DNA of 62,132 nucleotides. Origin: an uncultured Lachnospiraceae bacterium. GTDB lineage: Bacteria > Bacillota > Clostridia > Lachnospirales > Lachnospiraceae. The notes beneath the pieces were generated by a model. It was not told where the DNA came from. It saw nothing but the letters and a program-made list of their open reading frames with translations, and did no database searches. A program made the translations under genes and the position numbers. The stretch spans positions 1 to 62,132 of the forward strand of contig CACYMQ010000018.1 of the NCBI GenBank assembly GCA_902775555.1, given 5' to 3'. This document shows, piece after piece, positions 2,968 through 19,162 of this stretch (its first letter is position 1; each line of letters begins with the position of its first letter).

Positions 2968-3014
2968 ACTGTTCCGGGTCGAAAGTATAGACAATAAAGG
3001 GAGGAAGTAAAGAA

Positions 3015-4601
3015 ATGAGAAGTTTCAGCTTTCACGCAAAAACCATCGGAAAGGAACGGTACCTCACCTACATTATGGGCGAGGGAATGGAACTGGATGA
3101 AGACACACTGGATTTCATGGAAGACGAGATGCCGGAGGATCTGGTCAGGGTTATCTTTGAACAGGACGAGGATTATGATTATCTGACATATGACATTTCG
3201 GGAAAGGTTTCGCTTCAGAAGTACACCTCGGGTGTGATGAATAAAGAAACGGTTCTTAAGATTCTGAGAAATGTGGCGCTGGGAATGATCAATTGCAAGG
3301 AGCAGGCGCTCCATCTCGCATATATCCTCCTTCATAAGGACTTTATATACGTTGATCAGGATACGATGAAGATGCAGTTCATCTGCCTTCCTGTAGAGGG
3401 AGAGGCATCCGTATCCACGGAGTTCAAGAGTTTTGTCCGTCAGCTGATCGCAAATTTCAAATATGATCTGGACGGAGATGTGGCATATGTCGGTACACTG
3501 CTTGCCTTCATCAATGGTGATACATTTAACTTACGAAATCTGATCGGCCTTACAGAGGCTCTGATGGAGGATGAGGGGATCGAATTCGAGGCGGAAGATG
3601 CAAGCATCGCCACAGAAGATGGAGAGGTTGTTGACAGTACGATCCCTGAACCGGAAGAAAAGGATATCTCCCACTTCATGAATGATCTTGGAACGGGAGA
3701 CGAAGCGCTGCCGGAGATCGGTGACGACGAGGACGATGATGAAGTTGAACTGAGCGATGCGGAGAAAGTATCGGAAGCAGAGGAACCTGTGGAGGAAACT
3801 GACGAAGCAGAAGAGGCAGCGGAGGAACCGCAGGAAGATGAGGAGCCTGAGGAAGAGGCTGTAGAGGAATCGCAGGAAGAAATCGAAGAGGAAGAAACAC
3901 CGGCCGAAGAAGAAGCGGTTCCGGAAGAACCTGCGGAGCCCACACTTGAGGAGCTTGCAGAAAAGGCAAAGCGTCTTGCAGAGGAAGCAAAGCAGGCAAC
4001 ACGCGGGGCTCGTGCAACTACCAAGAACATCAAGGTGAGCCGTGCGGCCATCATTCAGAACGCTGCTGCACAGGAAGCCGAGATCGTACAGGAGACCGGC
4101 GACCGCGCGAGCACAGAGCTGCTCAGAAGTGATGAGGTCCAGGAGTATTCCCAGGAATCCAAGAATGCGAAAGAGAAGAGAAACGTAGTAACCGAGGATA
4201 TCGCTTCCGTAGTTGCGCCTGATGAGGAGAAGGGTAAGGCAAAATCGAAGGCAAAGGCAAAGAAGGAAGAGCCGGCGGCTCCGGCAGTAGATGTATCCGC
4301 GATCAAGGTGAATCCGTATCTGATCCGTGAAACCACGGAAGAGCGTACCATGATCACGAAAAATGTCTTCAAGATCGGTAAGGCCAATCGTGGCGTAGAT
4401 TATCATGTAAGCGGTAACGGAGCTATCTCCAGACAGCATGCCATCATCACAAAGAAGGATGACGGATACTATATCAAGGACAATAAATCAACGAATCACA
4501 CCTATGTCAACGGCAAGGAACTGGAGGACGGAGAAGAGGTTCTTCTGAACAATAACACCAGGATCCGACTGGGTGATGAGGAATTCCTGTTTAAGTATTA
4601 A
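3015..4601 (+). CDS. DUF6382-like N-terminal domain and C-terminal FHA domain protein
   Basis: The product is a 528-residue soluble protein without a signal peptide. Residues 1-185 resemble DUF6382, a domain I associate with FHA proteins of Clostridia; the stretch with LHLAYILLHKDFIYVD recalls the inactive-kinase fold of EssB/YukC, but that similarity is from memory. Residues about 190-320 are extremely rich in Glu and Asp, and 320-430 are a Lys/Ala/Glu linker. Residues 430-528 form an FHA domain with IGK, ISRQHAII and STNHTYVNG, the set that binds phosphothreonine peptides. The neighbouring genes supply a kinase, a PP2C phosphatase and a second FHA protein, so a phospho-dependent adaptor role is inferred. 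DUF6382 proteins also occur near Tad pilus genes, another possible context. Confidence 0.82.
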   Translation: MRSFSFHAKTIGKERYLTYIMGEGMELDEDTLDFMEDEMPEDLVRVIFEQDEDYDYLTYDISGKVSLQKYTSGVMNKETVLKILRNVALGMINCKEQALHLAYILLHKDFIYVDQDTMKMQFICLPVEGEASVSTEFKSFVRQLIANFKYDLDGDVAYVGTLLAFINGDTFNLRNLIGLTEALMEDEGIEFEAEDASIATEDGEVVDSTIPEPEEKDISHFMNDLGTGDEALPEIGDDEDDDEVELSDAEKVSEAEEPVEETDEAEEAAEEPQEDEEPEEEAVEESQEEIEEEETPAEEEAVPEEPAEPTLEELAEKAKRLAEEAKQATRGARATTKNIKVSRAAIIQNAAAQEAEIVQETGDRASTELLRSDEVQEYSQESKNAKEKRNVVTEDIASVVAPDEEKGKAKSKAKAKKEEPAAPAVDVSAIKVNPYLIRETTEERTMITKNVFKIGKANRGVDYHVSGNGAISRQHAIITKKDDGYYIKDNKSTNHTYVNGKELEDGEEVLLNNNTRIRLGDEEFLFKY

Positions 4602-4625
4602 GAGTAAGATTGGGGGAAGAGCAGC

Positions 4626-7343
4626 ATGAAGAAGTATCGTATTGAGGTTGACCGGATGAATGGTTATCAGATGCTGAAGTATCTGGTGCAGGTTGCGGAT
4701 CAGGTGGATGAACGGGCTGTGGACCGGTCCAGAACGACACAGGTACACGGCATGATGTACATGCAGCCGGCAGAGATAAACGGGCAGAAGACCATGACGG
4801 TTAATGTGCCGGATTTTCCGACACTTTCCTCCTACATCCAGAAGGTTCTCGGAAAACAGGAAGTTCTTACGATCCTGAGAAATCTCGCAACTACATTTTC
4901 CGCAGGATCACAGGGGATTCCCGTAAGCTGTATCGTTAAGGATGAAGATGTGATCTTTGTGAATCCGCAGAATGCGCATACCATCTGTATGCTCCTTCCG
5001 ATCAAGCAGGAAGCTGTGGATATGACGGAGGTTCCCTGCTTCCTGCGGGGGCTGATCTCCAAAATGAAATTCGAGGAGGCAGACCGGGACAATTATGTTG
5101 CGCGGTTGCTTTCAGAGATAAATGCTTATCAGTTTAATATTGAGAGATTCCTTAAGCTGGTCAATGAACTCCTGTCCATGACCGGAGCGGAAGCAGGACC
5201 GGGCAAAGTGAATCGCATGGAAGTAATGAGAAATCGTGCTGCAGGACAGGCAGCGTATGGTGCGCCGCAGGGCATGGCACCGCAGGGAATGCCACCGCAG
5301 GGCATGGCACCGCAGGGAATGCCGCCACAGGGCATGGCACCACAGGGAATGCCGCCGCAGGGCATGGCACCGCAGGGAATGCCGCCACAGGGCATGAGAC
5401 CGCAGGGAATGCCGCCACAGGGTATGGCACCGCAGGGAATGCCACCACAGGGCATGAGACCGCAGGGCATGCCGCCACAGGGTATGGCACCGCAGGGAAT
5501 GCCGCCGCAGGGCATGAGACCGCAGGGCATGCCGCCACAGGGCATGGCACCACAGGGTATGGCACCGCAGGGAATGCCCCAGGGTATGAGACCGCAGGGT
5601 ATGCCTCAGGGTGAAGAGATGAAGTCCCAGGGAATCCCGGTAACGCTGGAAGTTCCGAAGACCCCGGAAGCACCGAAGATGGAGGAGAAGCCGGAAGCTC
5701 CGAAGGCACCGGAAGCACCGAAGATGGAAGAGAAGCCGGAAGCTCCGAAGGCACCGGAAGCACCGAAGGTGGAAGAAAAGCCGGAAGCTCCGAAGGCACC
5801 GAAGATGGAAGAGAAGCCGGAAGCTCCGAAGGCACCGAAGATGGAAGAGAAGCCGGAAGCTCCGAAGGCACCGGAAGTACCGAAGATGGCAATCCCGCCG
5901 CAGGGAGCACCGATGGGAATGGTACCGCCGATGGGAATGCCACCGCAGGGAATGGTGCCGCCGATGGGAATGCCCCAGGGCGCAGTACCGCCACAGGGAG
6001 CACCGCAGGGAATGGTACCTCCGATGGGAATGCCACCGCAGGGAGCGCCGCAGGGAATGGTACCTCCGATGGGAATGCCGAAGGGCGTAGTACCTCCGCA
6101 GGGTGCGCCGATGGGAATGGCACCGAAGATGGAAGAGAAGCCGGAAGTTCCGGAAACGCCGAAGGCACCGGAAGCGCCGAAAGCACCGGAAACTCCGAAG
6201 ATGGAAGAAAAGCCGGAAGCACCGAAGATGGCAATCCCGCCGATGGGAATGCCACCGCAGGGAGTAGTACCTCCGATGGGAATGCCCGCCGGACCGAAGG
6301 CGCCGGAAGGACCGAAGGCACCGGAAGCGCCGAAAGCACCGGAAGCCCCGAAGCCGGCAACACCGCCACAGGGAATGGTACCTCCGATGGGAATGCCTGC
6401 CGGACCGAAGGCACCGGAAGCCCCGAAGCCGGCAACACCGTCACAGGGAATGGTACCTCCGATGGGAATGCCGCAGGGAGCACCGCAAGGCATGCCACAG
6501 GGTGTTGTACCTCCGATGGGAATGCCCGCAGGACCGAAGGCTCCGGAAGCACCGAAGATGGGCAATGCACCTGTCGAGTCCGATATTCCGGCAGCAATGA
6601 AGAATCCGACCTCCGAACTGACATCCGCAGAAGAATTGGATCTTGGTTCGATGATGACAAATATAGCAAAACCGGAACCTCCGAAGGCACCGGAAGCACC
6701 GAAGCCGGCAACACCGCCACAGGGTGCGGTACCTCCGATGGGAATGCCACCGCAGGGAGCACCGCAAGGCATGCCGCAGGGCATGCCGAAGGGTGTAGTA
6801 CCGCCGGCAGGAATGCCTGCAGGACCGGAAGCACCGAAGCCCGGAATGCCGCCACAGGGTATGCCGCAGGGAATGCCGCAGGGTGTAGTACCGCCGGCAG
6901 GAATGCCTGCAGGACCGAAAGCACCGGAAGCACCGAAGCCCGGAATGCCGCCACAGGGCATGCCGCAGGGAGCACCGCAAGGTATGCCGAAGGGTGTAGT
7001 ACCGCCGGCAGGAGCACCGTCTGGACAGCCCGGAAAACCGGAACCCAACTTTGTGCGTAAGAATACAGGTGAGTGCATCGTATTTACCAAAGAGCGCTTC
7101 ACCATTGGAAAATCAAAACTCCATGCAGACTACTCGCTGGAGAATAATACCGCGATCAGCCGGACCCATTGTGAGATCGTTCGCAGAAACGGCGTTAATT
7201 ATCTGAAGGATCTGAATTCCACGAACGGAACCTTTGTAGACGGAAAACGCCTTGCACCGGGAGAAGAGATCCTTCTCAAGAACGGTTCGATCATACGCAT
7301 GGGCGACGAAGACTTTATATTCCGGCTCAGAAGAGGAGAGTAA
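4626..7343 (+). CDS. DUF6382-like and FHA domain protein with a long PQGM/APK repeat linker
   Basis: The product has 905 residues. The N-terminal 190 residues repeat the DUF6382-like layout of the previous gene (TILRNLATTFSAG, then EDVIFVNPQN). The middle, about 213-815, is low complexity: first PQGM-type pentads, then Ala-Pro-Lys/Glu blocks with MEEKPEAPK, then mixed PPMGMPPQG blocks. The C-terminus (about 825-905) is an FHA domain with FTIGKS, ISRTHCEI and the canonical STNGTFVDG loop. The gene starts 24 bases after the first FHA gene and ends one base before the phosphatase ATG, so translational coupling is likely. The linker resembles Pro/Gln/Met-rich flexible tethers and probably gives reach or phase-separation behaviour rather than enzymatic function. 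No catalytic motif was seen. Confidence 0.82.
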   Translation: MKKYRIEVDRMNGYQMLKYLVQVADQVDERAVDRSRTTQVHGMMYMQPAEINGQKTMTVNVPDFPTLSSYIQKVLGKQEVLTILRNLATTFSAGSQGIPVSCIVKDEDVIFVNPQNAHTICMLLPIKQEAVDMTEVPCFLRGLISKMKFEEADRDNYVARLLSEINAYQFNIERFLKLVNELLSMTGAEAGPGKVNRMEVMRNRAAGQAAYGAPQGMAPQGMPPQGMAPQGMPPQGMAPQGMPPQGMAPQGMPPQGMRPQGMPPQGMAPQGMPPQGMRPQGMPPQGMAPQGMPPQGMRPQGMPPQGMAPQGMAPQGMPQGMRPQGMPQGEEMKSQGIPVTLEVPKTPEAPKMEEKPEAPKAPEAPKMEEKPEAPKAPEAPKVEEKPEAPKAPKMEEKPEAPKAPKMEEKPEAPKAPEVPKMAIPPQGAPMGMVPPMGMPPQGMVPPMGMPQGAVPPQGAPQGMVPPMGMPPQGAPQGMVPPMGMPKGVVPPQGAPMGMAPKMEEKPEVPETPKAPEAPKAPETPKMEEKPEAPKMAIPPMGMPPQGVVPPMGMPAGPKAPEGPKAPEAPKAPEAPKPATPPQGMVPPMGMPAGPKAPEAPKPATPSQGMVPPMGMPQGAPQGMPQGVVPPMGMPAGPKAPEAPKMGNAPVESDIPAAMKNPTSELTSAEELDLGSMMTNIAKPEPPKAPEAPKPATPPQGAVPPMGMPPQGAPQGMPQGMPKGVVPPAGMPAGPEAPKPGMPPQGMPQGMPQGVVPPAGMPAGPKAPEAPKPGMPPQGMPQGAPQGMPKGVVPPAGAPSGQPGKPEPNFVRKNTGECIVFTKERFTIGKSKLHADYSLENNTAISRTHCEIVRRNGVNYLKDLNSTNGTFVDGKRLAPGEEILLKNGSIIRMGDEDFIFRLRRGE
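5262..5610 (+). repeat. In-frame tandem repeat encoding PQGM pentads
   Basis: Units of 15 bases encoding P-Q-G-M-x are arranged mainly as 30-base pairs ending alternately in Ala, Pro or Arg codons. Copies differ chiefly at third codon positions (CCG/CCA, GGC/GGA/GGT). Copy number in such arrays can change by slippage, so length may vary between strains. Confidence 0.9.
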
Positions 7344-7344
7344 C

Positions 7345-8118
7345 ATGGATTTTACTGCAACCTATAACACGGATATCGGGATCCGAAAGAATACAAATCA
7401 GGATTCCCTTGCACTCCGTATCATAGATACACCTTCCGGAAAGGTGGCTTTTGGCATCGTCTGTGACGGAATGGGAGGCCTCGCAAAAGGCGAACTGGCA
7501 TCCAAAGAAGTGATCCAGGCTTTTTGCGAATGGTTTGACAAGGATATGTCGCAGATGATGCTGACAGGAAGCTTCACGGTTGCGACACTCAGAAATGACT
7601 GGAATCGTATCATACAGGAACAGAATATACGACTGGGACGTTATGGCGCAGAGAACAATCTCATGCTCGGAACTACGGTTTCGGCGATCCTTATGTGCAA
7701 CGATGAGTTCTATATCGTTCATGTCGGTGACAGCCGGATCTATGAAATGTCGGACGCCGGGGTACGGATGCTGACCAATGACCAGACCTTTGTTGCCAGA
7801 GAGATCGCAAATGGACGTATGACACCGGAACAGGCGGCTGTAGATCCCAGACGAAGCGTCCTGCTTCAGTGTGTGGGAGCCTCAAGTGTGGTTGAGCCTG
7901 ATTTTGTTAAGGGACATCTGAAGAAAGGCGCAGTGTATATGCTTTGTTCGGATGGATTCCGTCACCAGATCTCGGATGATGAAATGGTTGAGAAGCTGGG
8001 GCCGCAGGCATGCATGACAGAAGAAGAAATGAAATACGGTTGTGTCTACCTGACGGAAGTCGTAAAGAACCGGAAGGAAACGGATAATATTACTGTAGCA
8101 GTGATTAAGACTATGTAA
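7345..8118 (+). CDS. PP2C-family Ser/Thr protein phosphatase
   Basis: This 257-residue PPM/PP2C phosphatase is predicted to remove phosphate from Ser/Thr residues using two metal ions. All core motifs are present: NQDS, VCDGMGG with the metal-binding aspartate, LGTT, HVGDSRIY, CSDGF and the final DNIT. It has no transmembrane segment and no extra domain, matching small bacterial PrpC/Stp enzymes. The ATG at 7345 has GGAGAG close upstream and lies directly after the stop of the FHA gene. It almost certainly opposes the kinase encoded 15 bases downstream, forming a reversible phosphorylation pair. Confidence 0.95.
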   Translation: MDFTATYNTDIGIRKNTNQDSLALRIIDTPSGKVAFGIVCDGMGGLAKGELASKEVIQAFCEWFDKDMSQMMLTGSFTVATLRNDWNRIIQEQNIRLGRYGAENNLMLGTTVSAILMCNDEFYIVHVGDSRIYEMSDAGVRMLTNDQTFVAREIANGRMTPEQAAVDPRRSVLLQCVGASSVVEPDFVKGHLKKGAVYMLCSDGFRHQISDDEMVEKLGPQACMTEEEMKYGCVYLTEVVKNRKETDNITVAVIKTM

Positions 8119-8133
8119 CGGGGATAAAACAGG

Positions 8134-10248
8134 ATGACTAAAGAAGGAACCGTCCTTGACGGAAAATATGAAATACTGAAGGAGATCGGTCGCGGTGGTA
8201 TGTCGATCGTTTACCTTGCCCGTGATAACCGACTGAACAAACAGTGGGCGGTCAAGGAGATGAAAAATGACGGATCCAAGAGCACGGAGACACTTCTGAA
8301 AGGACTTGAGCGGGAAGCAAATATTCTGAAGAATGTTGATCACCCCGTTCTTCCGCGAATTGTTGATATCATTAACAGCCGCGGTACGATTTATGTAGTA
8401 ATGGACTTCATCGAGGGAACCAACCTGGGAGATGTTCTGAAACAGGAAGGTGCCCAGTCTCAGGAGGATGTGATCGACTGGGGTATCCAGCTGGCTTCGG
8501 CTCTGGATTATCTCCATTCCATGAATCCGCCCATCATTTATCGTGATATGAAGCCGGCAAATGTTATGCTTCGCCCCGAGGGCGGCGTGAAGCTGATCGA
8601 CTTCGGAACGGCGAAAGAGTACACGATAGAGAATAACGCGGATACAACAGCTCTCGGAACCCGGGGCTACGCCGCACCTGAGCAGTTCGGTGATGCGCAG
8701 GGACGAGGCATCTATAAGACGGATGCCCGGACCGATATCTACAACCTGGGTGCGACGCTCTATCATATGGTAACAGGTATGAATCCCTGTGAGCCTCCTT
8801 ACGAGATCAAGCCCATCCGTCAGTGGAATCAGGCGCTGTCTACCGGTCTGGAACAGATCATCCTGAAATGTACCCAGCCGAATCCGAATGACAGATATCA
8901 GTCCTGCTCGGAGCTCCTCTACGCGTTGGAGCATTATACCGAACTGGATGATTCTTATAAGAAGGCAAATAAGAAGAAAGTGATCCTCTTCGGTGTCTGT
9001 GCGGCACTTTCCATCGTCTCCGCAGTAACGGCCATTATCGGATATAACGGTATGCGCCGTGAGGAGAAGGAGAATTATGCAGCCTATATCGAATCCGGAA
9101 ATGATCTGAAGATCCAGCAGAGATATCAGGAAGCGGCAGAGGAATATAAGAAGGCTTTTGATCTGAAGGATGATCAGCCGGATGCTTATGTAGATTACAT
9201 TGACCTGTATATCGATGCCACCAGGAATCCCAATGTGGCGGAAGCAAATGCGCTTAAGATGGATGATGGTCTGAGTACCATCGCCAACCGTGTGAATAAC
9301 GGAGATTCCGATGTAAGCAAGAATGCAGAGGTCCTGTACCGGCTGGGTCTGGCATATTTCACCGAGCTTGGTGATTATGCGGCTGCGGACAAGTATTTCC
9401 GCATGGTTCCCGCGGATGATCCGGAATACGGCGAACTGGCGGGTTATTATGAGAGTATCGCATTTATCCGCTCCAGCAGTAATCCGAATGTAGAAGACCT
9501 GATCGGAAATGTAAACCGGTTTGCTGACTATAACATGAGCCGGTTCTCAAATACCGATAAACAGAAATATGTGAATTATCAGACCCTGGGCAGCATCTAC
9601 GCCACATATGTAACCACGGAAGGGGTTGCGGAAAAGGGCGAAGAGGTCATGGGAAAGGCACTTGAAGATCTCGAAAACTATGATGGTGAGGATGCAAACC
9701 AGTTTGATTACGACTTTAACAACAGCCTTTCCGAGATCCGTTATGAACTCGGGAAGACAAATTCCTCCTACTATAAGCTTGCGATCCAAAGCTGTGAGGA
9801 GGTTGTAAGCTATATCAAGGGAAATCTCAATATCCTTCAGGCGGAAGGTGATAACGAAAGCCTTACGACCTACAGGAAATCTTATGAAGAGAAAATGTGC
9901 CGGATCGCAGAGATCTATGGTGTTCAGGGGGATTTTGACAATGCGGTCAAAACCTTCAAGGAAGCGGAAGATGAACTCTCGAAAGCAGGTGATGCTGCCA
10001 ATGAGAATCTGGCAAGGGTCTACACAAGACATCTGATGTATGTATATCAGACCTTTGCAGATAAGGAAAATGATATAACCAAATGGTCCGCAACGAACCG
10101 AAGTACGATCCTGGAGATCTATGAAGCAGGACGCAAGGTGCCCGGGATCGAGAAGAACTCCAACTGGGTGAAGCGTGTATCTGATATGGATACTCTGGAA
10201 TCCACGCGCAGCGGTGCAGGAACTACAACAGAAGAGAAGGGAGAGTGA
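8134..10248 (+). CDS. Transmembrane Ser/Thr protein kinase with helical-repeat C-terminal part
   Basis: The product has 704 residues. Residues about 10-270 are a Hanks-type kinase: glycine loop GRGGMSIVY, ATP lysine Lys41 (AVKEM), catalytic YRDMKPANVM with Asp138, DFG-type DFGTAK with Asp156, and GTRGYAAPEQF in the activation segment, whose threonines are likely autophosphorylation sites. A single hydrophobic helix at about 283-305 follows a KKANKKK stop-transfer patch. The remaining 390 residues look like TPR-style helical repeats (QQRYQEAAEEYKKAFD, GDYAAADKYFRMV, GDFDNAVKTFKEAE) and should be outside the cell, unlike the PASTA repeats of PknB/PrkC. The substrate is not visible from sequence; the E-T-x-V-L protein encoded next is my best candidate. 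Confidence 0.93.
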   Translation: MTKEGTVLDGKYEILKEIGRGGMSIVYLARDNRLNKQWAVKEMKNDGSKSTETLLKGLEREANILKNVDHPVLPRIVDIINSRGTIYVVMDFIEGTNLGDVLKQEGAQSQEDVIDWGIQLASALDYLHSMNPPIIYRDMKPANVMLRPEGGVKLIDFGTAKEYTIENNADTTALGTRGYAAPEQFGDAQGRGIYKTDARTDIYNLGATLYHMVTGMNPCEPPYEIKPIRQWNQALSTGLEQIILKCTQPNPNDRYQSCSELLYALEHYTELDDSYKKANKKKVILFGVCAALSIVSAVTAIIGYNGMRREEKENYAAYIESGNDLKIQQRYQEAAEEYKKAFDLKDDQPDAYVDYIDLYIDATRNPNVAEANALKMDDGLSTIANRVNNGDSDVSKNAEVLYRLGLAYFTELGDYAAADKYFRMVPADDPEYGELAGYYESIAFIRSSSNPNVEDLIGNVNRFADYNMSRFSNTDKQKYVNYQTLGSIYATYVTTEGVAEKGEEVMGKALEDLENYDGEDANQFDYDFNNSLSEIRYELGKTNSSYYKLAIQSCEEVVSYIKGNLNILQAEGDNESLTTYRKSYEEKMCRIAEIYGVQGDFDNAVKTFKEAEDELSKAGDAANENLARVYTRHLMYVYQTFADKENDITKWSATNRSTILEIYEAGRKVPGIEKNSNWVKRVSDMDTLESTRSGAGTTTEEKGE

Positions 10249-10253
10249 CAGCT

Positions 10254-11111
10254 ATGTATCGTACACTATTTTATGCCGGACTCATCCTCGCAATCGCCTT
10301 CCTGATCGCTGCAGTCGTACTCTTCTTTGTACTGAAGATACCGAGAGCGTTGGGCGTGGTTACCGGACGTACACAGAAACGTGCGATCGAAGAGATCCGG
10401 GCCGGTGGAATCGAAGCAAGAACAAAAAGAGAATCCAGAAGGGGTTCTGAAAAGAGGATCCACGTACGTGAAGTGGAAATGGATACGGGATCCCTTAATA
10501 AAACAGGAAAAACAGGAACCATGGCTGCACAGCAGGCCGCACAGCAGGCTGCCCAACAGGCTGCCGTCAGAGATGCGGCAAGGGATATGCAGACCGCGAC
10601 CACCCAGGTGGATCTGGAAACCGGATCTACGGTGGGAAGGACCATGAAGGATCGGAGTAAAGCCTATGAAGAAACCGAGGTCCTGGGCTTTACGGGAAGT
10701 CTGAACGGCGACGGAGTCGGTGCAAAAACAGAGGCGGAAACGGATGTTTTAGGGGGTCAGAACAGTAGCCCTCAGGATGAAGAAGAAACGGATGTGCTCA
10801 GCTCCGGATCTGAAAGTCAGATGGTTGGCGGTGGAACGGTAAGAATGCCGGATTACAGTCCCGAGATGGATGAAGAGACGGATGTACTTAGTACCGGACC
10901 CCGTCCGGCACAGAACAGAGACATGGAGACGGATGTACTCCTGTCCGGAACCTCCGTACCGGAGGATGCAAATATCGTCGGCCGGTACAGTGCCGAGGAG
11001 ACAGCGGTTCTTCGAAGCATACATACAGAAACGGAGCCGGTTGCTCCTGACAGCAGAGAGATAAGAGTGCTTTACAGTGAGACGATCGTTCATACGGAAG
11101 AAAGTCTGTGA
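10254..11111 (+). CDS. Small membrane protein with six E-T-x-V-L motifs
   Basis: I do not recognise a family. The 285-residue product begins with one strong transmembrane helix (about 5-28) followed by a basic region (40-70), an Ala/Gln segment, and then an acidic tail. The tail repeats the core Glu-Thr-x-Val-Leu at Thr141, Thr163, Thr179, Thr209, Thr226 and Thr250. In each copy leucine stands three residues after the threonine, a position FHA domains read. With kinase, phosphatase and two FHA proteins directly upstream, I infer that the cytoplasmic tail is a phosphorylated docking strip. I start it at the ATG at 10254, with GGAGAG 8 bases upstream; a GTG at 10245 is possible. It overlaps nothing but follows the kinase stop closely. 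Confidence 0.75.
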   Translation: MYRTLFYAGLILAIAFLIAAVVLFFVLKIPRALGVVTGRTQKRAIEEIRAGGIEARTKRESRRGSEKRIHVREVEMDTGSLNKTGKTGTMAAQQAAQQAAQQAAVRDAARDMQTATTQVDLETGSTVGRTMKDRSKAYEETEVLGFTGSLNGDGVGAKTEAETDVLGGQNSSPQDEEETDVLSSGSESQMVGGGTVRMPDYSPEMDEETDVLSTGPRPAQNRDMETDVLLSGTSVPEDANIVGRYSAEETAVLRSIHTETEPVAPDSREIRVLYSETIVHTEESL

Positions 11112-11183
11112 TAAAGTGAATTATCAATTAAGGTGAAACTTGAAAGTAATGCCCGGAACAGGGCAAAAGAAAGGATGGGAACA

Positions 11184-14100
11184 ATGAACAAGAGAGCGAG
11201 AAGGAAAAAACAGATCGCACGCCGTGTGACTGCTATTCTGCTCAGTCTGGCCATGGTTTTCAGTGTGATCTACATTAACAATAGGAACGACGAGGCAAAT
11301 GCTGCGTCAACTATTATTTATTCTGGGATCGATGAGTATGAGGAGACGCAGTTCCTGAGCGGGAAGGACTTTAAAACTTCGGGACAGAAATATAAGATCG
11401 TAAATCCTGTAGAAAAAGTGAAATTCCTTTTACCTGCAGTTACTTCGGACTCAGCTGATGAATACTATGGCTGGTATGAGGATGGCAAGGTCCCTGCGCC
11501 GGATGGCACATCTCCGTGGACGGTTTCGGGTGGTCAGCCCGTTACACATCTGAGCGGCCTGAGTGAAAGCGGCTGTACAAAGAAGGCGGTTCTTTGCCTG
11601 ATCCATAACGGGGCAGAGGCGGTTCCATCGTCAGGGGGCGATCCGGGGAGTTCACAGGTGGATGCGACCGTGACGGAACTGTCCTCTGTTGAACTTGTAA
11701 ATCAGCCACTGGTCAATATTCCTACGGTTACAGTGGATGACGAGAAGCAGACAGTGACAGTATCTGATGAAGATCCCATCTATTCCGTTGGATCAACATC
11801 AACAGATCCACTGGAACTGAAATATGCGCAGGTTTCATATGCGTACGAAAAGAACAGCAGTTCTGCGGATGTAAAGAGTAAGGATCAGGCTGGCAGCATT
11901 AACGGATGGGGATCCCTTAGCACGATGGGAACAGCCCTTAATGCTGACGGTGATTCTGCTGATGGTTTCTATCATATCTATACAAAGGTTGTTATAAATA
12001 AGAACGGGACAGAGGAGATCATAGACTGGAAGACTTTAGATTATGAAAGGAACTTCTGTTTCAATTTCAGTAAGATGACCATAAGTGCCGGTTCGGTGGA
12101 AGGTTCTTATGATCCCGGTTCGAAGAAATTTACCATCGGCGGAGTGGGTCCTATGGATCCGGTTGTTATCGCGTTTACAACGACCGATACCATCGACAGC
12201 ATCGTGGCGAAGAAGGGCTCCGATACGATCACGGGAAGCGGGAACAGCGTTACGATCCCGGGAGCGGCCGGTAATGACGGATTGCAGAATGTGGAATATA
12301 CCATAGATGTTTCTGCTTCCGGAAAAAAAGCAGAATCATTTACTGCGGTTATTTCGTATAAATCAACAAAGCCGACGATTCAAAGTGTCGGCCTGAAGTC
12401 CGGGGATACCGTGATTTCGAGAACGGATACTACCGGAAGGTATCTGGTCAATGTAGACGATACGAAAGATAATAAGGTTGTGAAGGTCACAGCAGCCGTT
12501 AACACCACTGAAGGGACTTCCATCACCGCAAAACTTCTTAAGGGTTCTGACCAGGTGGGGGATGCACAGACCGTCAATGCGAATTATGGGACGTTTGAGT
12601 TCCCCGTCACATTGACTACAGCCGGCGAATATGAGTATAAAGTAAGTGCGGAAAGCGGGAATGTCGAGGCAGATCCCGCAGGTTCGGTAAAACTGTTTTA
12701 TGATAATTCCAAACCCAGGTGTGACAAGGTTCAGATCACCCAGACTTTTAGTGGCGGTGACCGCACACAGACGGAAGCTGACGGAACATTCGCGACAAAG
12801 CTCAGTGCTGCAAAAGATTTCACACTTACGGTAACAGCCACGGATGAAGCGAATACGCCGAATGAAAGTCAGGTCAAATCAGTTACAGTCAATATGTGGG
12901 GACCTCATGTGGCGACGTCTGTTGACGGCAACGATTATAAGTTTACCTTCCCGGCGAATGACGCTTATAAATACCAGACAAACGGCCTGCCATTTGAAAT
13001 TGTAATTGAAGATAATGCAGGAAATGTTACTACGAAGACGGTAACAGTCTTTTTTGCAAAAGATGAAATCAAGGTCAATAGTGATATCAAGGATGAAAAT
13101 GCAAAGACGAAGCAGGTGACCGGTAACGGGAATTTTGACATCGAGTATACGTTCGATGCCGATGCACCTCTCGAATCAGCCCAGTTAACACTGAAGCAGA
13201 CGATCGATGGGAAATCCACGGATGTTGTGGTTGATATCGAAAAGGCTAAACTTGATGAAACAATGACACAGGATGCGGCGGGAGTATACCATTATACGTA
13301 TACTTACAATGTAAAGGTTGATAAAACCGCAAAACTGGAAAAGATCACCATGACCGCAACAAATCATAATGATGCGGTTGGTAAAAATGAGATTGACGTC
13401 ATCAATATTGATATGACGGACCCGGATGTAAGTTATACATTTGATCCGGATGATCTGGCAAGGATAAGCAGTGGCGGATGGTTCAGAAATCTGATCATCA
13501 ATGTCACATATACAGATAGCGATCCTTCCGGCGGGTTCCACAATGATCCGGATGGTTCCAAGACATTCCCGCTCCAGACCGGCGTTATCGTTAGTTCGAA
13601 TCAGTTCGATGGTTCGACCGGAAAAGGAAGCGCAGTACTTAAGGTGGATGCATCAAATGATACATCCGGAACGGAAGTTGAATTCCACTTGATGGATGCG
13701 ATGGGAAATCTTTACAAATTCCCGAAAACCACGGTTTATGTGGATGCAATACCGCCCCAAGTCACTTCCATCAGGGTTAACGGTCAGGATACCGTTACAA
13801 GTTCGGTCAAGGGAGATCCTATGGTATCTTTTGCCACATGGGATAACCTGGGAGTGGTTGATGTCAAAGCCAGCATCAGCAGGAAAAACGGTGCTACGGT
13901 GGATATCACTTCCTTTGTGGATAAAAGCAAGATGGAACTGAAGGCAACGGCTCTCAGTACATTGCTTGGCGGAAGCCCTGAGGATGGAGATTATACCGTT
14001 ACCGTGACAATCGCAGATCTTCCAGTGGAATCTGTTACAACACCATATGGCGGATATGAAACGGTAACACAATCCTTCAATTTCACTTTGGACAATACGC

Positions 14101-16565
14101 CTCCGACTCTTTCTGCAAAGCTTGAGAGTCCGGAGATCATTAAAAACGGTATGTATACCAATGAGAAGGAAGTGGTGGTACTCCTGCATGTGGAGGAGCC
14201 GCATCTGGATCCTGCGACATTAAAGGTGACCGATAACTCCATCGAGCAGAAAGTAAGCTGGAAGGATTCTGCAGGCGGAGTAAAGGACGCGCGTCTTGTG
14301 GTTAAAGGGCAGGCCGTTCATACGATCAGGCTTGAGGCAGTGGATGACGCAACGAATACAAATGCAGCTGTAGTACCGCAGTTTGTGATCGATACCACAA
14401 ATCCTTCCATCGCAACAACCCTTGGCGATGCTCCTTATTATGAAAAGAGTTATAGTTATCTTCGTAAGACGGCAAACATCGGCGTGACCGTTTCGGATAA
14501 CAATAAGGATGCTGTCCATGGTCTGACGATCACGGAAGAACTGATGCCCCACGATGGATCCAAGTCCACCACGACGGTACGGAAGGATCAGAAGGACGGC
14601 ACCTATAAGTATTCGTCGGATGGAGATTACGTGATCACATATGCGGCTGTGGATCTTGCAGGTAATAAGACCACAAGGAAGATCCGTTTCACAGTGGACA
14701 AGACGGTTCCCGTGAATGACATCACCATCCGCAAGCCGGAGGATGCTGCGAAGTATGCCCGGTATCAGACGAAGTATGAGAATGAGGAAACAGGTGCTTC
14801 CTACAGCTATGCGCAGTATTATAATCATGATGTTGTAATGGATATTACGGCGGAAGATTACAATATGAAGAAGATCCTGGCTACGGATTCTGCAAGTGAT
14901 ACTCCGATCCTGGAGATCGATAACTATGACAGCCAGGAGTCCGGCGCCTACAGCATTCCTTATACTGCAAGTTCGGAGGGAATGCATACAATCGCCGTTA
15001 CCACCTGGGATCGTTCCGGAAATGTTTCGACGGTAAAGAATGTATCCTTTGTGATCGACAAGACAAAACCGGTACTTAACACAACGCTGAACGCAAGCTC
15101 ATTTGTCAGCGGCGGAGAGACCAGATATCTGAACACAAACGGTACGGTAGCGGTTACGGTATCGGATGCAAATAAGGATAAAGAAGATCTGACAAGAACC
15201 CTGAAGGTGACACCTCCGGGAGGAACTGCATCCACAACTGTTTCGAAGGTCAATGAAGGCTCACAGGACTTTACTGCAGAATCAGACTATGATGTAAGCT
15301 TTGTAGCGGTGGATCTTGCGGGAAATGAAAGTGCAACCCATGAGGCAACCTTCCGTGTGGATAAGACGGCTCCGGAGCTCCGGATCAGCGGTGCCTCGGA
15401 CGGCGGTGCATCAACACAGGCAGTCAACATCGTTTACAATGTACATGAAGCCTTCTACAGTGATATGACGAAGGCCATCGTAAGAGTCTACAGAAAGGTG
15501 GACGGTTCGGGCGAGTCTCTGATCCGTACAGTGGACTTCAAGGCTACCGGACAGGATTCCAGTATGACGGAGAACTTCTCGGAAGACGGCGAGTACCGCT
15601 TCGAATTTGAGGCAGAAGACAGAACCGGAAATACGGCAAATACAAGTTACAGCTTCATGCTGGATGCAACGGCTCCGACTATCGTTCTGAATGGCGTAAA
15701 GAATTACGACAAGACCAAGGAAGATGTGGAAGTCGGAATCCTGGTAACCGAGAATTTCTATACCACGAATACGCTGAACATTGACGGTACACGTATCGAC
15801 ATCGACGGTAAGAAAAATGCCGTTAAGGTCGAACCCTTCAATGCAAATAGAAGCCGTGAACTGAATATCGTCCAGATCTTTAAGGAAGACGGCATCTATG
15901 ACCTGAATATTAATTCCAAGGACAGAGCCGGAAATGAAGCAAAGCAGTCCGTACATTTCACTATTGATAAGACAGCTCCGGAGATCGGTGATCTGTCGAA
16001 GTATGACGGAAAGAAGCTGAATAAGTTCGTATGGGATATCGACGAGCAGAAACTGGTTCGTGACCTGACGGTATGTGATGTGACCATCTACCTGGATGGT
16101 ACGGTATACGACGGTATGGCAAATCTGACGGATGGTTCTCATGTCCTTCGTGTTACGGCTACGGATGAACTGGGCAATACCTCCAGCAAGGAAGTGACCT
16201 TCCAGCTGGATCAGATCGCTCCGAATATCATCGTAACCGGTATCGAGGATAAGCAGAGGATCGAGGAGCCGGTAAATATCTCGGTTTCACTTCAGATCGA
16301 CACGGATATCCTGGATTCTGTTACATTAAATGACAGTCCGGTCACTCTGGACGGAAATACAGCAAACTTCAAGGTAGATTCCGCCGGAGATTACAAGCTT
16401 GTGGTGAAGGCCCATGACGAGGCAGAGAACCAGGCAGAGCTTGAGTGGACATTTACCTACGGATCCAAGTTCAACTGGTGGTGGATCGTGGCAGCCGGCG
16501 GAGGAGTTCTGCTTCTCCTGATCATACTGCTCATCATCCGCAGGAAGAGCTGGAGTAAGAAGTAG
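11184..16565 (+). CDS. Giant secreted Ig-like-repeat protein with C-terminal membrane anchor
   Basis: The product is 1793 residues. The ATG at 11184 gives a basic N-terminus followed by a hydrophobic signal segment (VTAILLSLAMVFSVIYI) and cleavage near ANAAS. The bulk is a chain of beta-sandwich-like repeats, recognisable by about eleven boundary motifs of the type V/L-D-x-T-x-P (for example VDKTAPE, LDNTPPT, IDKTKPV), as in bacterial Ig-like adhesin or stalk proteins. The C-terminus has a WWWIVAAGGG-type hydrophobic helix and a RRKSWSKK tail, so it is anchored in the membrane rather than sorted by LPXTG. It lies at the end of the kinase/FHA block and may be its secreted or surface-exposed partner; ligand unknown. 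An earlier in-frame GTG at 11133 lacks good ribosome spacing. Confidence 0.82.
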   Translation: MNKRARRKKQIARRVTAILLSLAMVFSVIYINNRNDEANAASTIIYSGIDEYEETQFLSGKDFKTSGQKYKIVNPVEKVKFLLPAVTSDSADEYYGWYEDGKVPAPDGTSPWTVSGGQPVTHLSGLSESGCTKKAVLCLIHNGAEAVPSSGGDPGSSQVDATVTELSSVELVNQPLVNIPTVTVDDEKQTVTVSDEDPIYSVGSTSTDPLELKYAQVSYAYEKNSSSADVKSKDQAGSINGWGSLSTMGTALNADGDSADGFYHIYTKVVINKNGTEEIIDWKTLDYERNFCFNFSKMTISAGSVEGSYDPGSKKFTIGGVGPMDPVVIAFTTTDTIDSIVAKKGSDTITGSGNSVTIPGAAGNDGLQNVEYTIDVSASGKKAESFTAVISYKSTKPTIQSVGLKSGDTVISRTDTTGRYLVNVDDTKDNKVVKVTAAVNTTEGTSITAKLLKGSDQVGDAQTVNANYGTFEFPVTLTTAGEYEYKVSAESGNVEADPAGSVKLFYDNSKPRCDKVQITQTFSGGDRTQTEADGTFATKLSAAKDFTLTVTATDEANTPNESQVKSVTVNMWGPHVATSVDGNDYKFTFPANDAYKYQTNGLPFEIVIEDNAGNVTTKTVTVFFAKDEIKVNSDIKDENAKTKQVTGNGNFDIEYTFDADAPLESAQLTLKQTIDGKSTDVVVDIEKAKLDETMTQDAAGVYHYTYTYNVKVDKTAKLEKITMTATNHNDAVGKNEIDVINIDMTDPDVSYTFDPDDLARISSGGWFRNLIINVTYTDSDPSGGFHNDPDGSKTFPLQTGVIVSSNQFDGSTGKGSAVLKVDASNDTSGTEVEFHLMDAMGNLYKFPKTTVYVDAIPPQVTSIRVNGQDTVTSSVKGDPMVSFATWDNLGVVDVKASISRKNGATVDITSFVDKSKMELKATALSTLLGGSPEDGDYTVTVTIADLPVESVTTPYGGYETVTQSFNFTLDNTPPTLSAKLESPEIIKNGMYTNEKEVVVLLHVEEPHLDPATLKVTDNSIEQKVSWKDSAGGVKDARLVVKGQAVHTIRLEAVDDATNTNAAVVPQFVIDTTNPSIATTLGDAPYYEKSYSYLRKTANIGVTVSDNNKDAVHGLTITEELMPHDGSKSTTTVRKDQKDGTYKYSSDGDYVITYAAVDLAGNKTTRKIRFTVDKTVPVNDITIRKPEDAAKYARYQTKYENEETGASYSYAQYYNHDVVMDITAEDYNMKKILATDSASDTPILEIDNYDSQESGAYSIPYTASSEGMHTIAVTTWDRSGNVSTVKNVSFVIDKTKPVLNTTLNASSFVSGGETRYLNTNGTVAVTVSDANKDKEDLTRTLKVTPPGGTASTTVSKVNEGSQDFTAESDYDVSFVAVDLAGNESATHEATFRVDKTAPELRISGASDGGASTQAVNIVYNVHEAFYSDMTKAIVRVYRKVDGSGESLIRTVDFKATGQDSSMTENFSEDGEYRFEFEAEDRTGNTANTSYSFMLDATAPTIVLNGVKNYDKTKEDVEVGILVTENFYTTNTLNIDGTRIDIDGKKNAVKVEPFNANRSRELNIVQIFKEDGIYDLNINSKDRAGNEAKQSVHFTIDKTAPEIGDLSKYDGKKLNKFVWDIDEQKLVRDLTVCDVTIYLDGTVYDGMANLTDGSHVLRVTATDELGNTSSKEVTFQLDQIAPNIIVTGIEDKQRIEEPVNISVSLQIDTDILDSVTLNDSPVTLDGNTANFKVDSAGDYKLVVKAHDEAENQAELEWTFTYGSKFNWWWIVAAGGGVLLLLIILLIIRRKSWSKK

Positions 16566-16634
16566 GAAGCTGGGAAGTGCTAAGCAGACGAAATGCTAAA
16601 CAGATCATGGAATGATGATCATAAAATGTGGAAT

Positions 16635-16665
16635 AGCGCGGGTCCGTCGCCCGCGCTGTTCTTGT
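16635..16665 (+). terminator. Probable terminator after the Ig-repeat gene
   Basis: The 8-bp GC-rich stem AGCGCGGG / CCCGCGCT has a 7-base loop and is followed by GTTCTTGT. The U-tract is weak, but the position, 70 bases after the stop codon, is right. Confidence 0.55.
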
Positions 16666-16713
16666 ATAGGAACGCCGGAGCCTCGGCGGCAAAGTTTATA
16701 TAGAGGAACTTAT

Positions 16714-17367
16714 ATGGGAAAATATAAAGCAGTTGTTTTTGATATGGATGGTGTGATCTTTGATTCCGAACGGGTCTACCGTATGATGGAGCACCGGGAG
16801 GCGGCAAAATACGGGTTCCCGGATGAACTGGTGGAGCCCTTCTGCAACAAGATCGCCGGCGGAACGAAGGACACCAACCGCAGGCACTTTGAAGAAACCT
16901 TCGGTACGGAGGTTGACTATTTTGTGTTCCGGGAGGGTGTGAATGCCGGTGTGGATGCCTATGGCAGAGATCCCGGATATGACGTAAAGCCGGGAATCCG
17001 GGAACTTATGGATCACCTGAAGAGAGAAGGGATCCGGATCGGACTCGCAACCTCTACGGCACATGAGAGAGCGGAGTACCATCTGAAACGCCATGGCCTC
17101 TATGATTATTTTGATGAGATCGTTTACGGAGATTCCGTTCCCAGAGGAAAACCGAATCCGGACATATACCTGGCGGCGTGCCAACGGCTGGGCGTGGATC
17201 CGGCGGAAGCAGTGGGGGTTGAGGACTCCATCAACGGAGTGGTCTCCTGTAAGAGAGCCGGTCTTTTCACGGTCATGGTGGTGGATCTTATCCAGCCGGA
17301 TGATGTGGTAAGGGCACATGTGGATGTGATCCTGGACCGTGCGGATCAGTTGATCCCGCTGCTATGA
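16714..17367 (+). CDS. HAD-superfamily phosphatase, beta-phosphoglucomutase-like
   Basis: The product is a 217-residue HAD hydrolase. The nucleophile motif is DMDGVIFDSE, motif II is the TST in LATSTAHERAEYHL, and the loop GKPNPDIYLAA and VGVEDSINGV complete the metal site. The cap domain (about 18-85) is the small helical type found in phosphoglucomutase, phosphonatase and DOG phosphatase relatives. I start at 16714 because GAGG lies 7 bases upstream; a longer in-frame extension has no ribosome site and an atypical composition. The substrate cannot be decided from sequence. It sits alone between a terminator and the SCIFF promoter. Confidence 0.87.
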   Translation: MGKYKAVVFDMDGVIFDSERVYRMMEHREAAKYGFPDELVEPFCNKIAGGTKDTNRRHFEETFGTEVDYFVFREGVNAGVDAYGRDPGYDVKPGIRELMDHLKREGIRIGLATSTAHERAEYHLKRHGLYDYFDEIVYGDSVPRGKPNPDIYLAACQRLGVDPAEAVGVEDSINGVVSCKRAGLFTVMVVDLIQPDDVVRAHVDVILDRADQLIPLL

Positions 17368-17377
17368 TAGTTTTTGT

Positions 17378-17405
17378 TTGCAAATGTATGGGAATGTGTT
17401 ATAAT
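17378..17405 (+). promoter_or_regulatory. Promoter of the SCIFF peptide gene
   Basis: TTGCAA and TATAAT are separated by 16 bases, with a TG one base before the -10 hexamer (extended -10). It lies about 55 bases upstream of the SCIFF start, giving a leader that contains a palindrome. Confidence 0.8.
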
Positions 17406-17419
17406 GTCACCTGGACTTT

Positions 17420-17440
17420 GTCCCTTTTCAGAAAAGGGAC
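17420..17440 (+). repeat. Perfect palindrome in the SCIFF leader
   Basis: Arms GTCCCTTTTC (17420-17429) and GAAAAGGGAC (17431-17440) flank a single A. It starts about 15 bases after the -10 box and ends 7 bases before the GGAGG ribosome site, so it could be an operator at the transcription start or a leader element. Confidence 0.7.
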
Positions 17441-17460
17441 GTTAAAGGGAGGAAGAAAAA

Positions 17461-17601
17461 ATGGATAGAATTCAGACACTTACAGAGACCACATATCAGG
17501 AAACACAGGAGCATGGTGGATGTGGCGAGTGCCAGACATCCTGCCAGTCTGCATGCAAGACTTCCTGCACGGTAGGAAATCAGAGCTGCGAAAATCAGTA
17601 A
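17461..17601 (+). CDS. scfA: SCIFF ribosomal peptide precursor (six cysteines in forty-five)
   Basis: This 46-residue peptide is the substrate of the radical SAM thioether maturase encoded next. The N-terminal half acts as leader (TLTETTYQETQEHGG). The C-terminal half holds exactly six cysteines, at 21, 24, 28, 32, 36 and 43, in the spacing CGEC-QTSC-QSAC-KTSC followed by a longer gap to the last. This is the defining pattern of the family found across Clostridia. In characterised relatives the maturase links a cysteine to a threonine in the core, and Thr26/Thr34/Thr37 are candidates here. The start has GGAGG 8 bases upstream. The biological role of mature SCIFF is not known. Confidence 0.95.
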   Translation: MDRIQTLTETTYQETQEHGGCGECQTSCQSACKTSCTVGNQSCENQ

Positions 17602-17640
17602 AAGGCCCTGTAAAAGACTCTGTTATAGAAATCTTTAGGT

Positions 17641-17670
17641 AAGGGGACCATCCCGAGGGATAGTCCTCTT
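17641..17670 (+). promoter_or_regulatory. Hairpin between SCIFF precursor and maturase
   Basis: A 14-bp stem (17641-17654 with 17657-17670) has one A-C mismatch and one G-U pair and a two-base gap at its tip. It is followed by ATCTTG rather than a clean U-run. It probably acts as a partial terminator or RNA-end stabiliser that keeps precursor output above maturase output. Confidence 0.55.
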
Positions 17671-17689
17671 ATCTTGCATGGAGAGCGTT

Positions 17690-19162
17690 ATGAAGCAGGT
17701 TCATCAATTTAAGAATAACGGTTATAATATCGTGCTGGATGTCTGCAGCGGCTCCGTCCATGTGGTTGACGATCTGGTATATGACCTGATCTCACTCTAC
17801 GAGAAGAATCCGAAGGATACGGTGATCCGCAGACTGAAGGAGGACTATCCCGAAGAGACGGAAGAAGGGATCGCGGAAGCATACGAGGCGGTACGGAAGC
17901 TGGAGGCGGATGGTCGTCTCTTTGCAGAGGATACCTATGAGAATGCGGTGATCGATTTCAAGAAGAGAAAGACCGTGGTGAAAGCACTCTGCCTGAATGT
18001 GTCCCATGACTGCAATCTGGCATGCAGATACTGCTTTGCCGGACAGGGAGAGTATCACGGAGACCGTGCGCTGATGTCCTATGAGGTGGGAAAGCAGGCG
18101 CTGGATTTCCTGATCGCCAATTCCGGGAACCGGAGGAATCTCGAGGTTGACTTCTTCGGCGGCGAGCCCCTTATGAATTTCGAAGTGGTGAAGCAGCTGG
18201 TGGCTTACGGGCGGCAGAGGGAGAAGGAGACCGGAAAGAATTTCCGTTTTACCCTGACTACGAACGGGATCCTTCTGGATGACGAGGTCATTGATTTTGC
18301 AAACCGCGAACTGAAGAATGTTGTCCTTTCCATAGACGGAAGGCGTGAGGTAAATGATGCCATGCGTCCCACCCGGAACGGGAAAGGAAGTTATGATATC
18401 ATTCTTCCTAAATATAAACATTTCAAGGAGAAGCGGAAGGGCGAGTACTATATCCGCGGAACCTTTACCCGTAAGAATACGGATTTTTGTGAGGACGTAC
18501 TGAATCTCATCGATGAAGGCTTCGATGTGATCTCCATGGAACCGGTGGTAGCGCCGCCGGAGGAGGATTACTCCATCCGTGAGGAGGACGTACCGAAGCT
18601 TTTGGAGCAGTACGACCGTCTGGCAGCGGCTCTGGTGGAAAGAGCAAAGGCAGGGAAGCCGGTGACCTTCTTCCATTTCATGATCGATCTGACCGGCGGT
18701 CCGTGCGTATACAAACGTCTGGCCGGCTGTGGTTCCGGAACGGAGTATCTGGCCGTGACCCCCTGGGGCGATCTGTATCCATGTCATCAGTTTGTGGGAG
18801 ATGAAAGATTCCTGCTCGGTGATGTATGGAAGGGCGTGCAGAAGACAGAGCTGGTGGATGAGTTTAAGTGCAACAACGTCTATGCCAAGGAGAAATGCAG
18901 AGACTGCTTCGCAAGATTCTTCTGCAGCGGAGGCTGTGCGGCGAATGCATTTGCCTTCCATGGAAAGATCCTGGAGGCCTATGATATCGGCTGTGAACTG
19001 GAGCGGAAGCGCGTGGAATGTGCGCTGATGATGAAAGCGGCTCTGGCTGGGACACGGGCAGCAGGAGCCTTACAGAAGGAAAGCGATGCCTGCGGCAGGC
19101 AGGATGAAGGAACTGACTGTGAGGATACCTGTGAGGTGACCGGAGGTATGCCGGTGTGCTGA
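17690..19162 (+). CDS. scfB: SCIFF radical SAM maturase
   Basis: The product is a 490-residue radical SAM/SPASM enzyme that forms thioether bonds in the SCIFF peptide. Residues 1-95 resemble the peptide-binding RRE-like region (VHQFKNNGYNIVLDV). The cluster-binding motif is CNLACRYC with Cys108, Cys112 and Cys115. The C-terminal half carries the extra-cluster cysteines of a SPASM domain (GPCVYKRLAGCGSG, YPCHQF, CRDCFARFFCSGGC). I place the start at ATG 17690, which has GGAG 6 bases upstream and gives the MKQVHQF N-terminus typical of the family; the ATG at 17678 lacks a ribosome site. An unusual Cys-rich tail (about 465-490) follows the SPASM region. Confidence 0.95.
   Translation: MKQVHQFKNNGYNIVLDVCSGSVHVVDDLVYDLISLYEKNPKDTVIRRLKEDYPEETEEGIAEAYEAVRKLEADGRLFAEDTYENAVIDFKKRKTVVKALCLNVSHDCNLACRYCFAGQGEYHGDRALMSYEVGKQALDFLIANSGNRRNLEVDFFGGEPLMNFEVVKQLVAYGRQREKETGKNFRFTLTTNGILLDDEVIDFANRELKNVVLSIDGRREVNDAMRPTRNGKGSYDIILPKYKHFKEKRKGEYYIRGTFTRKNTDFCEDVLNLIDEGFDVISMEPVVAPPEEDYSIREEDVPKLLEQYDRLAAALVERAKAGKPVTFFHFMIDLTGGPCVYKRLAGCGSGTEYLAVTPWGDLYPCHQFVGDERFLLGDVWKGVQKTELVDEFKCNNVYAKEKCRDCFARFFCSGGCAANAFAFHGKILEAYDIGCELERKRVECALMMKAALAGTRAAGALQKESDACGRQDEGTDCEDTCEVTGGMPVC

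Follow-up and report, generated by a model that had tools for sequence, protein, structure and literature searches.

Why should a single-pass membrane protein, encoded beside FHA-domain proteins, a protein phosphatase and a kinase, carry one short threonine motif six times in its tail, and what might read such a strip? The question is raised by the protein termed TMP here, whose gene lies in the window, the whole stretch of 62,132 nucleotides of DNA that was analysed (Table 1).

Table 1. Features of the TMP locus, in window positions; residue numbers in brackets refer to TMP.
Feature	Position	Strand	Description	Basis
FHA1	3015..4601	+	DUF6382 (kinase-like fold), linker with one T-E-L-L (T367 of FHA1), FHA domain	
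FHA2	4626..7343	+	DUF6382-like, long P/Q/G/M- and K/E/A/P-rich repeat linker, FHA domain	weak Pfam match for the DUF6382-like part
PP2C-type protein phosphatase	7345..8118	+		Pfam/NCBIfam
Ser/Thr kinase	8134..10248	+	YRD, DFG and APE present; TPR C-terminal part	Pfam/NCBIfam
TMP	10254..11111	+	single-pass membrane protein, helix residues 2-26, tail with six T-x-V-L	
Motif 1, ETEVL (T141)	10671..10685	+		translation, motif scan, alignment
Motif 2, ETDVL (T163)	10737..10751	+		translation, motif scan, alignment
Motif 3, ETDVL (T179)	10785..10799	+	T and L invariant in 27/27 aligned tails	
Motif 4, ETDVL (T209)	10875..10889	+		translation, motif scan, alignment
Motif 5, ETDVL (T226)	10926..10940	+		translation, motif scan, alignment
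Motif 6, ETAVL (T250)	10998..11012	+		translation, motif scan, alignment
Ig-like repeat protein	11133..16565	+	1,810 residues	Pfam/NCBIfam

TMP and its neighbours in the window

Translation, motif scan and shuffling bore out the original prediction of six E-T-[EDA]-V-L motifs in TMP, with Leu at +3 of Thr in 6/6, and Pfam/NCBIfam matches agreed with it in placing two FHA genes, a PP2C gene and a kinase gene directly upstream. Six T-x-V-L were reached by 0/20,000 shuffles of TMP residues 51-285, the maximum being three for T.VL and one for ET.VL. The codon strings of the six motifs differ from each other and no tandem DNA array was found over them (Tandem Repeats Finder, score of at least 50), which indicates that the motifs do not derive from recent DNA duplication and rules out a DNA repeat artefact for the window. 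The ETxVL codon pattern occurred 97 times genome-wide on both strands, versus 118 for a backwards control, and, among the matches listed, more than two fell inside 400 bases at the six TMP motifs and nowhere else, the others being scattered. At the nearby-hit pairs C3, C17 and C19 of the window's genome no second multi-motif protein was found, this being a called ORF of at least 80 aa on the same strand that covers the hits and holds more than one T-x-[VI]-L.

TMP had no match to a Pfam/NCBIfam family at E 0.01. The AF2 model gave a confident helix at residues 2-26 (pLDDT 93, 96 and 79 for the blocks of residues 1-30), mostly 38-56 for blocks of the tail and an overall mean of 51.9. Residues 27-70, which follow the helix, hold 13 K/R versus 5 D/E, and since basic residues follow the helix the tail is predicted to be cytoplasmic under the positive-inside rule. 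TMP also ends in a second element that is conserved among homologues (window 11085-11108) of a hydrophobic stretch followed by H-T-[DE]-E-x-[IL], IVHTEESL in the window; a loose version of this pattern fits 59 of 92 homologous tails and mostly contains no T-x-x-L site.

The gaps separating the PP2C, kinase, TMP and Ig-like genes are 15, 5 and 21 bases, and a scan of positions 2800-17000 gave no + strand terminator-like site upstream of 12145; the short gaps and lack of an early terminator are consistent with an operon. The kinase has a hydrophobic stretch near residues 283-303, and the Ig-like protein has an N-terminal hydrophobic segment and a C-terminal hydrophobic anchor as judged from its sequence. 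DUF6382 scored above cut-off in FHA1, while in FHA2 it reached 19.4 bits against a curated cut-off of 26.7. Tandem repeats with units of 15, 30, 45 and 36 bases, among others, lie inside the FHA2 linker (window 5263-7015) and encode PQGM-type and KAPEAPKMEEKPE-type repeats, and short tandem repeats were also seen in long ORFs at 56677-56792 (24/48 bases) and 59351-59436 (24 bases). Rfam gave nothing in the window at gathering scores.

Constraint on threonine and the +3 leucine in homologous tails

Homologues were collected with P0001 alone as query, which matched in 24/200 family genomes, and with a profile of the N-terminal helix (A1), which matched in 72/397 genomes. The best 64 of 75 match rows, window included, were analysed as TMP loci and the 11 weakest were left out; stretches of up to 20 kb were taken per locus, some of which end at contig ends. 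Within these stretches a kinase gene was present in 64/64, PP2C in 56/64 and FHA in 44/64. Upstream of TMP a kinase ORF was directly adjoining in 62/64, the exceptions being L147 and L137 (a single frame carries both the kinase and the TMP match). Beyond the kinase, PP2C followed in 53 loci and FHA after it in 35. A named search yielded 35 loci assigned to Lachnospiraceae, Eubacterium, Ruminococcus, Clostridiales or Eubacteriales, all of which had T-x-[VI]-L in TMP (35/35) and the kinase followed by PP2C directly upstream (35/35); FHA lay beyond PP2C in 34/35, and the contig of the remaining locus (L169) starts inside the PP2C stretch. The locus also occurs in a cultured relative, Eubacterium ruminantium ATCC 17233 (L168). 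An ORF of at least 900 aa, on the same strand and starting at most 3 kb downstream of TMP, was found at 68 of 92 loci. The wider profile A3 matched in 15/391 genomes of a class sample, seven from the same family and eight from other families (4/8 weak, E 2e-4 to 9e-4), and in 3/299 genomes of a phylum sample, all of the same family and all already known. With at most 20 candidates scored per genome, the few relatives in the phylum may reflect a lack of sensitivity.

Thr and Ser behaved very differently in these tails. In the 64 tails T..L occurred 249 times versus 45.1 expected and S..L 47 times versus 40.7, with Leu at +3 for 249/704 Thr (5.5-fold over background) and for 47/618 Ser, while T.[VI]L occurred 140 times versus 5.4 expected (300 shuffles, maximum 13) and S.[VI]L 4 times versus 4.7; such shuffles ignore shared ancestry, and the Ser counts and neighbouring proteins are the better controls. 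Enrichment was also found in 28 further named loci (T..L 209 versus 33.8 expected; S..L 32 versus 33.0) and in seven further loci, four from other families of the class and three from one genus of the same family (T..L 18 versus 3.2; S..L 6 versus 3.6). Over 92 tails at least one T..L was present in 89, at least two in 80 and T.[VI]L in 71.

Alignment of 27 close tails located the constraint. Thr was kept in 150/162 motif cells, with Ser in 1, and the +3 Leu in 149/162; mean conservation was 0.93 for T, 0.92 for the +3 L, 0.73 for V at +2, 0.40 for E at -1 and 0.31 for the other tail positions. Judged from these alignments the conserved core is Thr with Leu at +3, and the E at -1 and V at +2 of the original motif drift. 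Motif flavours shift jointly per protein, as in the TELL series of L132, the six TTKL of L150 and the four ATMVL of L142; Thr is constant across flavours and +3 is otherwise Leu, with Met in the four ETTVM of L113. A low-complexity repeat expansion without function might be argued from homologues at L173, L188, L130 and L132 that look recently expanded, but it is highly improbable given the differing codons and lack of a DNA tandem array in the window, spacers that drift while T and L stay, and an enrichment that recurs in the further sets. A PDZ-type reading of ETDV/L was ruled out by the internal position of the motifs and the near-complete avoidance of Ser.

Among neighbouring proteins, the FHA linkers were enriched as well (T..L 105 versus 31.2 expected; S..L 38 versus 35.3). 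In the close clade this enrichment concerned T..L (50 versus 15.2 expected) and not T.[VI]L (3 versus 1.5), whereas outside the close clade T.[VI]L reached 32 versus 1.7 expected. No enrichment of T..L was found in the C-terminal parts of the kinases (116 versus 137.5 expected) or in the giant downstream surface proteins (695 versus 672.6 expected). PP2C had T..L at 84 versus 120.2 expected, S..L at 166 versus 108.1 and S.[VI]L at 49 versus 15.8, and the folded kinase domains were above chance for both residues (T..L 182 versus 128.5; S..L 162 versus 109.7); fixed positions of folded domains can produce excesses of this kind.

An enrichment restricted to Thr, with Leu at +3, is as expected for FHA readers. 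The TMP tail is thus probably a multivalent phosphothreonine (pThr) docking platform read by FHA domains; this reading retains the phospho-docking strip of the original prediction with its core changed to T-x-x-L in place of E-T-x-V-L. The neighbouring membrane kinase would phosphorylate Thr of the T-x-x-L sites, the FHA domains of FHA1 and/or FHA2 would bind pThr and read the +3 Leu, as its conservation suggests, and several FHA proteins would thereby gather at the membrane until PP2C resets the platform. Signal or cargo may come from the kinase's TPR part and from the Ig-like protein, both predicted to lie outside, and the role of the module would be in envelope signalling. This reading names Thr and the +3 Leu as the residues that matter, and it predicts that FHA readers in such loci are recruited by multisite phosphorylation.

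The same residues could instead form the substrate consensus of the neighbouring kinase, where multisite phosphorylation would alter the charge or spacing of the acidic tail and reading by FHA domains would be incidental. A hydrophobic +3 residue is a preference of PknB-like kinases, the kinase ORF adjoins TMP in 62/64 loci, including those without a nearby FHA gene, and T..L is enriched in the latter loci too. Part of the motif could stem from what the kinase itself prefers. As a full explanation we consider it unlikely. Hanks-type kinases accept Ser, yet S..L stayed at the level of chance in the main sets; the motif was enriched in FHA linkers and not in the C-terminal part of the kinase, and an exact Leu at +3 would be needless for regulation by charge. 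For a different kinase, 59% of the PrkC-dependent sites of C. difficile were pSer and the sole enriched pThr motif was GXT, according to the part of the report consulted (PMC9674922).

FHA proteins as candidate readers

Loss of the motif despite retention of kinase and FHA genes, the outcome that would have spoken against docking, was not seen. Where the fetched stretch contained an FHA gene, window included, T..L was present in 44/44 loci and T.[VI]L in 34/44, in comparison to 17/20 and 9/20 where it did not. This link between T.[VI]L and nearby FHA genes (Fisher p 0.020; Mann-Whitney p 0.0046) goes largely with tail length and is weak, tails with and without local FHA being 137 and 85 residues long with 3.4 and 2.7 T..L per 100. 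Just three of 92 tails lacked T-x-x-L (L133, L140 and L148), none of which has an FHA gene in the fetched stretch, that of L133 being shortened upstream by a contig end. Strict co-loss of the motif and the local FHA gene was accordingly set aside as a weak argument that is partly an effect of tail length. At the 20 loci without local FHA, T..L was still enriched (45 versus 8.8 expected) and S..L was somewhat high (15 versus 8.6), which indicates that the reader need not be a neighbour. FHA domains were found in 62/62 genomes with TMP versus 52/62 genomes without a TMP match, and there are ten FHA matches in the window's genome; co-occurrence at the genome level was weak as support because FHA is common anyway. 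The original prediction had the long-linker FHA protein, here FHA2, as the one recruited; the reader may be FHA2, FHA1 or another of the ten.

In 95 aligned FHA domains Gly (1.00), Ser (0.99), Arg (0.97), His (0.99) and Asn (0.97) were kept, which we take to be the usual FHA binding face. The residue following the first Gly was Lys at 0.89 and Arg at 0.08, while FHA domains usually have GR at this place; with Lys replacing the usual Arg, it is not certain that these domains bind pThr. The same 95 domains have an Arg ahead of the first strand at 0.98, which together with the Lys possibly makes up an altered phosphate pocket. The closest PDB chains were from Rad53 FHA for the FHA1 domain and from TB39.8, which is presumably FhaA, for the FHA2 domain (including 3oun).

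The DUF6382 part of FHA1 (window 3015-3560) was predicted to adopt a protein-kinase-like fold (pLDDT 90.3), and the model matched structures of kinases, YukC/EssB and Rv3910 (chain 3uqc). HRD, DFG and APE are absent from FHA1 residues 1-182 and FHA2 residues 1-190, and FHA1 has HKD at 107-109, the D of which is not kept in several relatives (HKG, NKK, NKE). Because of the kinase-like fold, the absence of HRD, DFG and APE, and the HKD that is not kept, FHA1 and FHA2 are probably fusions of a pseudokinase with an FHA domain. A kinase-like fold of this type could, by its predicted shape, hold a peptide, and the strip might then bind an unphosphorylated partner such as DUF6382 itself or a protease adaptor. 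We regard this as quite improbable, since Thr is required (Ser in 1/162 cells) and a kinase gene accompanies TMP in 64/64 loci and PP2C in 56/64.

Returning to pThr docking by FHA domains, the candidate readers carry the same tag. The FHA1 linker has one STELL site at T367, and T-x-L-L is also found in the linkers of L161, L170, L171 and L177. In other lineages the FHA linker has six ETT[IV]L (L075), or pairs such as GETTVL-GETTVL end the linker before the FHA domain (L062, L068 and L076). Such G-E-T-T-V-L pairs resemble GarA/OdhI-type N-terminal sites. With the same tag in their linkers, FHA readers may also bind one another, and a layer or cluster would result.

Relation to known docking and type VII secretion systems

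Three known systems resemble parts of the proposal, here compared from the portions of each report that were consulted. In the type VI secretion system of A. tumefaciens, PpkA phosphorylates the membrane protein TssL and Fha then binds (PMC3953482), which is like the proposal in that a cytoplasmic part is phosphorylated and its pThr is bound by FHA. TssL has one site (T14) in a Gram-negative type VI system whereas TMP has a strip, and single-site peptides of the TssL-Fha pair bind weakly, with Kd of 0.54 and 1.58 mM (PMC3953482). Where each site binds weakly on its own, a strip would be favoured, and multivalency is the main departure from TssL-Fha. The MviN tail of M. tuberculosis is phosphorylated by PknB and recruits FhaA, and thus shares with the proposal a phosphorylated membrane-protein tail read by FHA as well as a pseudokinase domain; pseudokinase and FHA are on two proteins there and fused in one in the window, and the consulted text describes no repeat strip (PMC12599244). 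The pTQXF repeats of human MDC1 bind the FHA domains of RNF8 and Pellino and are like TMP in having several pThr sites, a fixed hydrophobic +3 and FHA recruitment (PMC11884936). MDC1 is a human DNA-damage protein with TQ sites phosphorylated by ATM and Phe at +3, and no homology is claimed (PMC11884936). In bacteria the TMP strip would correspond to the repeat docking of MDC1, in a form that could be rebuilt from purified parts.

The original prediction knew of no described example of its arrangement; this does not hold for the gene set, which resembles the kinase, phosphatase, FHA, membrane and Ig components of the type VII systems T7SSe and T7SSj, as far as these are covered in the consulted text of PMC11217815. 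T7SSe comprises the EssC-type ATPase TseC, the WXG100 proteins TseA/TseA2 and the ubiquitin-like TseB, and as accessory components the kinase TseD, the phosphatase TseF, the DUF6382 and FHA protein TseJ, the Ig-like TseI and the single-helix proteins TseK and TseH; T7SSj has the TPR kinase TsjD (PMC11217815). A membrane kinase, a PPM phosphatase and a DUF6382 and FHA protein are common to these systems and the window, where domains matching TseD, TseF and TseJ adjoin one another (Pfam/NCBIfam domain match). The TPR C-terminal part of the window kinase is like that of TsjD; TMP is like TseK and TseH in layout, orthology aside, with one helix and an unstructured cytoplasmic stretch; and the Ig-like protein is like TseI by domain layout, with an N-terminal signal and a C-terminal helix (PMC11217815). 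The two FHA proteins of the window are unlike the T7SSe set, and no mention of a T-x-x-L strip was found in the consulted description of T7SSe/T7SSj (PMC11217815). In the open-licence literature PMC11217815 alone was found for DUF6382, TseK, T7SSe and TseJ, and no report was found for the motif strings combined with 'FHA domain'. The docking strip would give a concrete role to a T7SSe-like membrane component so far described, in the text consulted, as a helix and an unstructured stretch (PMC11217815).

Membership of the window in a type VII system was ruled out and the likeness kept. EssC had no match over cut-off in the window's genome, which is 99.49% complete (TIGR03928; two partial matches at 107.7 and 107.6 versus a cut-off of 778.4 bits, probably FtsK-like proteins), and WXG100 proteins of the TseA/TseA2 type (PF06013) had no match at E 0.01. 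Because neither was matched, the module here seems to function independently of a type VII system; in some relatives it stands beside one. At E 1e-40 EssC was found in 32 of the 62 genomes with TMP (31 over cut-off), and a comparison of positions by hand placed it no more than 17 kb away, on the same contig, at 15/64 TMP loci (14 genomes). The phospho-relay gene set thus exists also in a genome without detected EssC or WXG100. A more tentative extension, which we hold to be possible and rather doubtful, is that kinase-controlled, multivalent pThr tails and tag-bearing pseudokinase-FHA readers assemble beneath the membrane into a signalling cluster, a lattice or condensate that is reversible. 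In some lineages it would gate a type VII system; in others, among them that of the window, it would gate a surface Ig protein.

Gene content upstream of the module was also noted at L069, where positions 14370-18482 encode a WG-repeat protein, a prepilin (A24) peptidase and two more proteins without a family match, possibly a Tad-pilus locus.
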